Of a DNA stretch of 64,000 nucleotides, positions 60,673 to 64,000 are shown in pieces. Origin of the DNA: Gordonibacter sp. 28C (GTDB lineage: Bacteria; Actinomycetota; Coriobacteriia; Coriobacteriales; Eggerthellaceae). A program made the position numbers and the translations under genes. A model generated the notes under the pieces. It did not search any database. It saw only the letters and a program-made list of their open reading frames with translations, and had not been told where the DNA came from. Where the stretch lies: the NCBI RefSeq assembly GCF_003339845.1, contig NZ_PPTR01000016.1, positions 1-64,000 on the forward strand, read 5' to 3'. How positions within the stretch are numbered: the stretch's first letter is position 1; every line of letters starts with the position of its first letter.

Positions 60673-61146
60673 GTGCAATTCAAGGCATCGACGGACTATG
60701 GCATGCGCGCCATCCTGTACCTGGCCGCACAGGGTACCACGTGCTCCTCGAAAGACATCGCGCAAGACATGTCCATACCACGCGATTATCTTATACAGCT
60801 GGCCCAGTTGCTGCGCAACGCCGGCCTCATCGAGGCGCGGCCGGGCAAGCACGGCGGTTACCGGCTGGCCAAGGAACCGTCTGACATCACCGTGCTGCAG
60901 ATCATGTCGGCGCTCGAAGAGGACGCGAAGGCGTCCACCCGCGCCAAGCGCTCGTCGCGCAAAGGCGGCGCCATGGTGCAGGGCGTCAAGCAAACCTATC
61001 AGCTTATCGAGGAGAGCTTCGACGCTTACTTGGACAGCCTGACCATCGAGATGATGCTCGAAAGCGTGAAGAACGGCGACAACCGCCGCACGTTTTTGGC
61101 CGAACGCCTCGAAGACGAAGGCAAGCGCCTCGCCCAAACCGCCTAA
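60673..61146 (+). CDS. Rrf2-family transcriptional regulator
   Basis: 157 residues. The winged helix (about 1-85) shows the family order: MQFKASTDYGMRAILYLA, SKDIAQDMSIPRDYLIQLAQLL, and GLIEARPGKHGGYRLAKEP. Fe-S members such as IscR and NsrR carry a three-Cys cluster in the loop that follows; here that loop is RAKRSSRKGGAM with no Cys, so this is a non-cluster Rrf2 protein. GTG start with TTAGGAGAC. The regulated genes may include its own and the divergent folate gene. Confidence 0.88.
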   Translation: MQFKASTDYGMRAILYLAAQGTTCSSKDIAQDMSIPRDYLIQLAQLLRNAGLIEARPGKHGGYRLAKEPSDITVLQIMSALEEDAKASTRAKRSSRKGGAMVQGVKQTYQLIEESFDAYLDSLTIEMMLESVKNGDNRRTFLAERLEDEGKRLAQTA

Positions 61147-61218: not shown

Positions 61219-62607
61219 CTAGCCAATGCCCAATACCTGCATGACCAGCAGCGCAGCCGTGAGCACCGTCACGATGCCCACCGTCACCCAAATGAGCACG
61301 CGCGACACCGGTCGCGAACGGTACTTCCCCATGATGCGCTTGTCGGCCGATATGATGGCCATGAACACCAGCAACACGGGCAGTATGATGCCGTTCACGA
61401 ACTGCGCCGTGAGCATGACCCCCATAAGGTCGATCCCCGGAATGAGCACCACGATCGCCGAGAAGGCGATGACGAACGTGAAGATACTCTTGAACAGCGG
61501 CGCTTCCTTCCATTTGAACGACACGCCCGCTTCCCAGCCGAACGCCTCGCAAATCACGAACGACGTGGTGAGCGGCAGCACGCACGCCGCCAGAAACGAC
61601 GCCGCGATGAGGCCGATGGCGAACAGCGCCTCGGCGTAGTGCCCTGCGAACGGCGCGAGGGCCTTGGCGGCGTCGGCGGCCGATTCGATCTCGATGCCCT
61701 GCGGGAACAGCACCGCGCCGGTGGTCACGATGATGAACCACGCTACGAGGCACGCGGCGATGGTGCCCGCCACCACATCCACCTTCTGCGAGAAGAAGTC
61801 CTTCACGCTCACGCCCTTCTCCACCACGTTGCTCTGGTTGAAGAACATCATCCACGGGGCGATGGTCGTGCCTATCATGGCTATGACGAGCGACACGAAG
61901 CTCTGGTCCTGCACGACGTGCGGCACCACGGTGCTGGTGAGGGCCTCGTCCCAGTTCGGATCCGCCATGAACGCGGCCACGATGTACGTGACGAACACGA
62001 GCGACAGGATAAGGAACACCTTCTCCACGCGCTTGTAGCTGCCGCCCACCACCAAAAGCCACACGGCGACGGCGGCCACGGGCACGGCCAGGTACTTCGA
62101 CACGCCGAACATCTCCATGCCGCTGGCGATGCCGGCGAATTCCGAGAACGTGGTGGCCACGTTGCCCACGAGCAGGGCCAGCATGGCCAGCGCGGTGAGC
62201 CGGATGCCGAACCGCTCGCGGATGAGCGCGGCGAAGCCCTTGCCCGTGACGGCGCCCATGCGTGCCGCCGTCATCTGCACCACGATGAGCAGCACGCACA
62301 TGATGGGAATGACCCAAAGCGTGGCGAAGCCGAACTTCGCGCCCACGGTGGAGTACGTGGATATGCCGCCGGCGTCGTTGCCGGCCATGGCCGTGACGAT
62401 GCCGGGGCCCAGCGCCGCCAGCAGAAGCCAGAGCTTGCTCGGCTTCTTCGGCTGCTCGAGCGGCTCCGCCTGGTTGTCGGCGAGGGCGATCCCGGTTTCG
62501 GGCTCCGTCGTGGCCTCGGGGCCTATCTGGCCGGTTTTGAAGCTGCCCCATTCGCGCCTGCGCTTGCCGCCCTCGGTTTTGCGCGCGTCGCTGTTCTTCA
62601 CCATCAT
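61219..62607 (-). CDS. NRAMP-related magnesium transporter (NRMT type)
   Basis: 462 residues, 11 helices, SLC11/NRAMP fold after a soluble N-terminus of about 55 residues. The ion site differs from classical Mn/Fe transporters: helix 1 reads MAGNDAGG instead of DPGN, and helix 6 reads TIAPWMMFFNQS instead of the MPH motif, so the soft methionine ligand is replaced by Ala and the His by Trp. These are the hallmarks of NRMT proteins. The characterised member, EleNRMT, is from Eggerthella lenta and transports hydrated Mg2+ and Mn2+ without proton coupling. SD GGAAGGTAG. It starts 4 bp after the stop of the MgtE-like gene. Confidence 0.9.
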   Translation of the reverse strand: MMVKNSDARKTEGGKRRREWGSFKTGQIGPEATTEPETGIALADNQAEPLEQPKKPSKLWLLLAALGPGIVTAMAGNDAGGISTYSTVGAKFGFATLWVIPIMCVLLIVVQMTAARMGAVTGKGFAALIRERFGIRLTALAMLALLVGNVATTFSEFAGIASGMEMFGVSKYLAVPVAAVAVWLLVVGGSYKRVEKVFLILSLVFVTYIVAAFMADPNWDEALTSTVVPHVVQDQSFVSLVIAMIGTTIAPWMMFFNQSNVVEKGVSVKDFFSQKVDVVAGTIAACLVAWFIIVTTGAVLFPQGIEIESAADAAKALAPFAGHYAEALFAIGLIAASFLAACVLPLTTSFVICEAFGWEAGVSFKWKEAPLFKSIFTFVIAFSAIVVLIPGIDLMGVMLTAQFVNGIILPVLLVFMAIISADKRIMGKYRSRPVSRVLIWVTVGIVTVLTAALLVMQVLGIG

Positions 62608-62611
62608 GGCG

Positions 62612-63964
62612 CTACCTTCCGGTGTAGCCGATTACTTGCAGCAGCACCAGCGTGTACAGGCCCAGGAACAGCAGCGAGGCCAGCACGATGCCCACTGCCT
62701 TGAGGGCGGTGGCCTTCGTCTTGTCGCCGCTCACGTCCTCCTCGATGGCGTCCCAGGCGTCGTCGACCGTGACGATGCCCAGCAGCATGTTGTGCTCGTC
62801 CACCACCGGCATGGCGGGCAACTCGTATTTGAAGATGTCGGCCGCCACGTCCTCTTCGGTTTCGTCGGGCGTCGCGGAGATCACGTCGTCGTACATGACG
62901 TCGCCCACGGGCTTCGCGTCGTCGGTGAGCACGAGGGTGCGCAGCGATAGAACGCCTTCGAACTCGTCGTATTCGTTGAGCACGTAGACGTAATGCACGG
63001 TGGGGTGGTCTTCGGGCAGCTCGCGCAGCACCTCGATGGTCTGGCCCACCGTGTCGGTGGCGTGCACGGCCACGAACTGCGTAGTCATCATGCCGCCGGC
63101 TGTGCCGTCCTTGTAGCCCAAAAGCCGGCGGATCTCGGTGGCGTCCTCCACGCCCATGAGGCGCAGCAGCGTCTCGGCCTTCTCGTAGGACAGGTCGCGC
63201 ACGATGTCGGCCGCGTCGTCCGGGTCCATGTTGCCCAAAAGGCCGGCGGCGCGGGCGTCGTCCAGATCCTCGATGAAGTCGGCTTGGTACTCGTCCTCCA
63301 TCTCGGAGATGGCCTCGGTGGCCTGCGCCTCGTCCAGGTGTTGGAACACGTTGGCGCGCTGTTGCGGGTCCAGCTGCTCCAGGATGTCGGCCACGTCGGC
63401 GGGATGCAGTTCGTCCAGGCGCTTGTGCGTCACGGAAAGCTGCACTTCGGACAGGTCGCGGTCGAGCAGGTCCATGTAGTTCCAGGCGATGATCTGCTCG
63501 TCGATCTTCTTGTTGAACACCTTCGCCACGGAAACAACGGCGCGCTCGAGCCAAGGGGCAAGCCCGCGCAGGATGCCGCGAATGCCCACCTCGGCGCCCA
63601 GCAGGCGCAGCTGCGTGCCCGAAATGGACAGCTTCAGATCGTTCACGCGCACGACCTTCAGGCCCTGCGTGTCCACGATCTGGCGGTTCAGCAAGTCGCG
63701 AGCGAGCAGCACCTCGTCGGGCTGCAGATAGCTGAAGCGGATGTCGTGCGCTTCCACCGTGAGCGTGATGCCCTCGTCGTCGAATTCGTCGACGTACTTG
63801 CGCCACGAGATCATGAACGGGACCTTGCCGGGCCCCTGGAAGGCCAGGCTCGTGATGCGGGGAAACACCTCGCCGGTGGAGATGGCCAAGTCGGAGATCG
63901 TGCCGATCTTCTCGCCGGATGCATCGACGACGGGTTTCCCCATTATTTGAGAGAGATAGAGCAT
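62612..63964 (-). CDS. PRC-barrel/MgtE-N/CBS-domain protein, probable Mg2+ sensor for the adjacent transporter
   Basis: 450 residues. Order: a PRC-barrel-like start (GKPVVDASGEKIGTISDLA), linker, MgtE_N superhelical domain (about 190-300; LHPADVADILEQLDPQQRANV), two CBS domains (about 305-425), and one or two C-terminal hydrophobic segments (VLASLLFLGLYTLVLLQVI). This is the cytosolic Mg2+-sensing half of MgtE without its transport domain. In operon with the NRAMP-related Mg transporter, it could act as a separate gating subunit or sensor. The ATG at 63964 follows AAGGGAAAC; the ATG at 63991 is also in the window. Confidence 0.85.
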   Translation of the reverse strand: MLYLSQIMGKPVVDASGEKIGTISDLAISTGEVFPRITSLAFQGPGKVPFMISWRKYVDEFDDEGITLTVEAHDIRFSYLQPDEVLLARDLLNRQIVDTQGLKVVRVNDLKLSISGTQLRLLGAEVGIRGILRGLAPWLERAVVSVAKVFNKKIDEQIIAWNYMDLLDRDLSEVQLSVTHKRLDELHPADVADILEQLDPQQRANVFQHLDEAQATEAISEMEDEYQADFIEDLDDARAAGLLGNMDPDDAADIVRDLSYEKAETLLRLMGVEDATEIRRLLGYKDGTAGGMMTTQFVAVHATDTVGQTIEVLRELPEDHPTVHYVYVLNEYDEFEGVLSLRTLVLTDDAKPVGDVMYDDVISATPDETEEDVAADIFKYELPAMPVVDEHNMLLGIVTVDDAWDAIEEDVSGDKTKATALKAVGIVLASLLFLGLYTLVLLQVIGYTGR

Positions 63965-64000
63965 GTTGGTTTCCCTTGCCGTCAGGCCCATGACCGGCGC

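Follow-up and report, generated by a model that had tools for sequence, protein, structure and literature searches.

The right end of the window (the whole 64,000-nucleotide stretch of the Gordonibacter sp. 28C contig that was analysed) carries a gene for an Nramp-related Mg2+ transporter (NRMT), which starts 4 bp downstream of a same-strand gene for a protein resembling the cytosolic sensor of the MgtE-type Mg2+ channel; both open reading frames lie at the coordinates given in the preliminary description, on the minus strand. The question raised by this locus is what a sensor detached from its channel does beside a transporter of an unrelated family. The features that bear on the answer are collected in Table 1.

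Table 1 Features of the NRMT–sensor locus and the evidence for each of them
Feature	Position	Strand	Evidence
NRMT, Nramp-related Mg2+ transporter, 462 aa	61219..62607	minus	PF01566, E=2e-84; 817 bits to EleNRMT (PDB 7QIA)
Helix-1 ion-site motif NDAGG (N77-D78-A79-G80-G81)	62365..62379	minus	Sequence; replaces DPGN
Helix-6 ion-site motif APW (A250-P251-W252)	61852..61860	minus	Sequence; replaces MPH
Detached MgtE-type sensor, 459-aa ORF; probable start at ATG M10, position 63964 (450 aa)	62612..63991	minus	
PRC barrel 1, residues 9-79	63755..63967	minus	PF05239, E=5e-11
PRC-like barrel 2, residues ~88-170	63482..63730	minus	hhalign to PRC barrel 1, P=1.8e-5; beta-rich in the model
MgtE_N, residues 195-295	63107..63409	minus	PF03448, E=1.6e-28
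CBS domain pair, residues ~300-415	62747..63094	minus	PF00571, two stretches
Unbroken helix 409-454, equivalent to the plug helix and continuing as one TM helix	62630..62767	minus	AlphaFold model, hydropathy

Neither the pairing nor the idea of feedback is new, both having been published by Shin et al. (2014; PLoS Genet, PMC4072509). In that study, most NrmT genes adjoin one that encodes the cytoplasmic part of MgtE, and cytoplasmic feedback by this MgtE fragment is put forward as speculation. The fragment was dispensable for transport, Ca_c0685 transporting without the sensor, and co-expression of the Acidobacterium capsulatum NrmT with its fragment gave no better Mg2+ rescue; both results are compatible with a negative regulator. 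At the same time, the A. capsulatum NrmT resembled a Mn2+ transporter although the fragment was present, which counts against a Mg2+ brake. The window shares with these pairs the adjacent same-strand genes and the MgtE cytosolic homologue, and its partner differs in having a tandem PRC module and, at the C terminus, a single membrane helix. An upstream M-box riboswitch accompanies only part of the group, and no RF00380 match was obtained in the whole genome of the window at E ≤ 1. Our literature searches returned no later paper taking up the MgtE fragment and none in which PRC-barrel and MgtE are mentioned together. What is added here comprises linkage counts, a series of partner architectures, a fusion of the sensor to the ATPase MgtA and an NRMT subclade with the motif DDPAG in which the sensor is truncated or lost; the apparently pore-dead five-helix relatives and the MgtA fusion are not described in the available part of Shin et al. 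(2014), and the fusion was found nowhere else in the literature searched.

By its sequence, the window transporter is a close ortholog of EleNRMT from Eggerthella lenta (PDB 7QIA; eLife 2022, PMC8806188), with which it shares the family, a very similar sequence and identical ion-site residues. The preliminary description had recognised an NRMT from NDAGG and APW, and this identification is borne out by the structure and profile matches in Table 1; moreover, NDAGG is common to all 80 named related NRMTs. EleNRMT is reported to transport Mg2+ without proton coupling, and we propose by analogy that the window transporter facilitates passive Mg2+ uptake. In the same article EleNRMT is expressed and works alone, including in liposomes, without a sensor; the protein was studied by itself, and no operon, CBS domain or gene neighbour is named in the text searched. 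A gene for an Rrf2-family regulator (60673-61146, plus strand) is convergent with the NRMT gene. This gene was considered as a member of the system and set aside, being located within ~400 bp of the NRMT gene in only ~32 of the 80 related loci.

The partner protein had been described as a PRC-MgtE_N-CBS protein without the MgtE channel. The domains and the missing channel stood, a Pfam profile search giving no match to the channel domain PF01769 in the sensor, but a second PRC barrel and the C-terminal membrane helix had been overlooked, and the full architecture is PRC-PRC-MgtE_N-CBS-CBS followed by one membrane helix. The gene end at 63964 in the same description implies a start at M10, which is the probable start because the sequences of orthologs and of the MgtA fusion also start at this point. 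The sensor matches the cytosolic domain of the channel TtMgtE at 1e-35, its closest solved structures are MgtE cytosolic domains, and its score of 173.6 bits lies below the NCBIfam mgtE cut-off of 232.75. In the AlphaFold model (mean pLDDT 90, pTM 0.58), helix 409-454 joins the CBS pair to the membrane, and MgtE_N together with the CBS pair superposes on the Mg2+-bound TtMgtE structure 2zy9 with an rmsd of 2.0 Å over 238 columns (Foldseek). The window sensor thus has in common with this channel MgtE_N, the CBS pair, the Mg2+-site acids and the position of the plug helix, and it differs in the addition of two PRC barrels and in having one membrane helix instead of the five-helix channel domain with Asp432. 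Note that the sensor was the sole MgtE_N protein of the genome in a family search, so the genome has no full MgtE channel; it carries two CorA genes.

The residues through which Mg2+ closes TtMgtE are largely retained. According to NMR and electrophysiology (PMC5882242), mutating Mg4 (D91/D247), Mg5 (D226/D250) or Mg6 (D95) abolishes Mg2+-induced closure of TtMgtE, and mutation of any of the sites Mg2-Mg7 blocks the closed state. Residue mapping places Mg4 at D258/D411 of the window sensor, Mg5 at E390/D414, Mg6 at D262 and Mg7 (TtMgtE E59) at E226, so that all six closure positions (E59, D91, D95, D226, D247 and D250 of TtMgtE) are acidic; additionally, TtMgtE D234 corresponds to D398, and the Mg3 site is kept (D423). 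The Mg2 site is absent, TtMgtE E258 being replaced by G422, and this counts against a Mg2+ brake.

Conservation of the gene pair across NRMT-bearing genomes had been set beforehand as a test of the proposal, and the pair was found to be conserved. Among 396 evenly drawn Actinomycetota genomes, a full-length sensor was present in 36 of the 36 NRMT-bearing Coriobacteriia genomes, and the two Eggerthellaceae genomes without NRMT lacked the sensor too. The sensor was found at 78 of the 80 named Eggerthellaceae/Coriobacteriia loci, the upstream DNA of the other two having been lost to a contig end. For a wider comparison, 122 Nramp-type proteins at Actinomycetota loci were divided into a Mg type, without the helix-1 proline (xDAGG-like), and a proline type (xDPxG), and a sensor or PRC gene located ≤1 kb from the Nramp gene on the same strand was counted as a partner. 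Such a partner accompanied 98 of 101 untruncated Mg-type NRMTs versus 3 of 14 proline-type proteins (Fisher P=1.7e-10, ignoring shared ancestry). Of the partners counted, 23 are PRC-only and incapable of sensing Mg2+ by themselves, which counts against a Mg2+ brake. In the tree, the SPY/DPSG Nramps, all of them without a partner, are separated from the partnered proteins.

Whole-genome searches covered Actinomycetota, and other phyla were represented by plasmids and by Shin et al. (2014). Nine annotated plasmid loci came from Bacillota, Pseudomonadota and Actinomycetota, and in eight of them the sensor gene lay up- or downstream of an Nramp gene, with pairs in either gene order from Alicyclobacillus, Citrobacter, Arthrobacter, Pseudarthrobacter, Cellulomonas, Leifsonia, Mycolicibacterium and Rhodococcus. 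Genes for ArsR/SmtB regulators occur near the plasmid pairs of Citrobacter freundii (pPSV, L243), Cellulomonas (L247) and Arthrobacter (L242), and genes for heavy-metal ATPases near the first two; two of these three plasmids are typed as conjugative. On a Tsukamurella plasmid (L245:3489-5302), a gene for a soluble PRC-MgtE_N-CBS protein overlaps that of a DUF1003 membrane protein with no Nramp gene adjoining, an exception that counts against the proposed brake on NRMT and makes the DUF1003 protein a possible further partner of the sensor. Within the NRMTs, a nested subclade with a Mn-like site (DDPAG) has a sensor cut before the CBS domains (L094, L096) or no sensor (L043, L044, L097), as would be expected if the sensor serves Mg2+; the loss was probably a single evolutionary event. 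The subclade is a natural experiment in which keeping the sensor can be set against metal specificity. Candidate NRMT-sensor fusions, seen as long frames at L027 (838 aa), L036, L037 and L038, were rejected as GC-rich read-through with no second Pfam domain.

Beside NRMT genes, the partner takes four forms: soluble, single-helix, five-helix and tandem-PRC only. The soluble form is PRC2-MgtE_N-CBS2 with no membrane helix; the same module with one helix is the form of Eggerthellaceae, including the window; and in the five-helix form it is followed by a membrane domain homologous to the MgtE channel. One five-helix partner (L055) matches TIGR00400 nearly end to end at 2e-109 and TtMgtE 2yvx at 5e-81, and the model of another (L050), of moderate confidence, aligns with full-length 2zy9 over 445 columns. 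Fifty-four five-helix proteins, 39 from NRMT-type loci and 15 standalone, were compared with 20 true MgtEs of the same phylum. The pore residue Asp432 was found in 0 of the 54 and in all 20 true MgtEs; its column is an alignment gap in about half of the five-helix proteins, and within this part of TM5 an acidic residue of any kind was present in 1 of 54 versus 20 of 20. Gln333 was likewise kept in a single five-helix protein versus every true MgtE, and Gly328 was absent from all 54, which nevertheless all retain the plug acids E255, E258 and D259. From their sequences, the five-helix partners look like pore-dead MgtE proteins retained as regulators. In the NRMT tree, the single-helix Eggerthellaceae branch nests among five-helix Coriobacteriia, which suggests that the C-terminal helix of the window sensor is probably a remnant of MgtE TM1, the order of events being deduced from this nesting.

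The tandem-PRC-only genes encode ~200 aa (192-218 aa) without MgtE_N or CBS and occur at f18 loci (e.g., L057, L065 and L087); at L064, L073, L074 and L077, such a gene lies on one side of the NRMT gene and a five-helix sensor on the other. The standalone five-helix proteins (L209-L223) have the PRC-MgtE_N-CBS module, lack the pore Asp and are encoded away from NRMT. That they partner another transporter was considered and rejected: the conserved adjoining gene, present in a conserved cluster at several of these loci, is that of a D-Ala-D-Ala carboxypeptidase.

An independent association of the module with Mg2+ import was provided by two 1318-residue proteins from two families of Actinomycetota (L207:781-4734 and L206:1093-5046, both on the minus strand), which are 87% identical. 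Residues 2-410 are a sensor, 51-52% identical to that of the window, and residues 436-1317 make up an entire Mg2+-translocating P-type ATPase, which scores 1099 and 1077 bits against TIGR01524 and has the motifs DKTGT, TGES and GDGIND. A start codon with a ribosome-binding-like sequence precedes the first PRC barrel, and there is no stop between the parts. Two of the 31 genomes of their class carry the fusion. In these two related genomes the PRC-MgtE_N-CBS module is N-terminal to an MgtA/MgtB ATPase, a transporter unrelated to NRMT; the fusion lies outside the window. Judged from sequence, it is the strongest evidence that the module may act on Mg2+ importers in general.

The partner could instead be an assembly, stability or localisation factor whose PRC barrels keep NRMT in place within the membrane or within a cluster, Mg2+ sensing being vestigial or serving another purpose. 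PRC-only partners in one branch, without MgtE_N or CBS, speak for such a role, since they make the PRC part the common denominator of all partners. However, at the four loci named above a full five-helix sensor is present alongside the PRC-only gene, the f18 genomes retain a full sensor elsewhere, the Mg2+-site residues are strongly conserved, and EleNRMT needs no partner for expression or activity (PMC8806188); we therefore regard this role as unlikely. Less probable still is a main ligand other than Mg2+, either Mn2+ or a nucleotide such as ATP bound by the CBS pair, by which NRMT would be tuned to the energy state or to a different metal. CBS pairs do bind nucleotides, TtMgtE has been solved with ATP (5x9g, 5x9h), and the Mn2+-transporter-like behaviour of the A. 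capsulatum NrmT with its fragment (Shin et al. 2014) points the same way, but the window sensor retains the Mg2+-site acids of MgtE, a Mg2+ ATPase carries the module as a fusion, and the sensor is cut or lost in the subclade with the Mn-like site.

That the pair is just an old neighbourhood kept by inheritance, the two proteins having no mutual action, seems very improbable. Most relatives of the window belong to one lineage, Coriobacteriia, and the linkage counts therefore overstate independence; nevertheless, the linkage holds between phyla, on plasmids and where the gene order is inverted, it excludes proline-type Nramps, and, independently, the MgtA fusion connects the module with Mg2+ import.

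A two-part Mg2+ uptake system, in which an MgtE-type sensor would shut NRMT at high cytosolic Mg2+, is the likely explanation of the locus. The partner would be an MgtE-type channel reduced to its cytosolic Mg2+ sensor by loss of the pore, with the remaining helix tethering it to the membrane. It would bind NRMT from the cytosolic side, most likely via the tandem PRC barrels; docking through them is the simplest reading because the PRC tandem is found in every partner type, even the sensor-less one. At low cytosolic Mg2+, MgtE_N and the CBS pair would be relaxed and NRMT would cycle freely. Once Mg2+ is high, the sites in common with MgtE would fill and the module would compact, and the rigid CBS-plug-membrane helix would pass this compaction to NRMT, stopping transport. 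We infer the physical binding, the PRC docking, the sign of the effect and dimerisation. Such a Mg2+-dependent brake would answer a sensible need, since EleNRMT is not proton-coupled (PMC8806188), and the action of the sensor on an unrelated transporter, as the preliminary description had suggested, gains support from the MgtA fusion and the retained Mg2+-site residues. With about even chances, PRC-PRC-MgtE_N-CBS may be a portable Mg2+-feedback subunit that has been used on three unrelated importers (MgtE, the neighbouring NRMT and the fused MgtA), with PRC as the docking adaptor and with pore-dead MgtEs surviving in a purely regulatory role and shrinking step by step to the single-helix form of the window.

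In the literature found, there is no demonstration of how cells keep passive import by NRMT from overloading them. A conserved partner with the Mg2+ sites of MgtE is the obvious candidate for the brake, and the structure and assays of EleNRMT, the best-studied NRMT, were obtained in the absence of this partner. The MgtA fusion offers a single-protein version in which the regulatory effect could be measured directly, and, together with the pseudo-channel series, it makes the proposal of 2014 testable.
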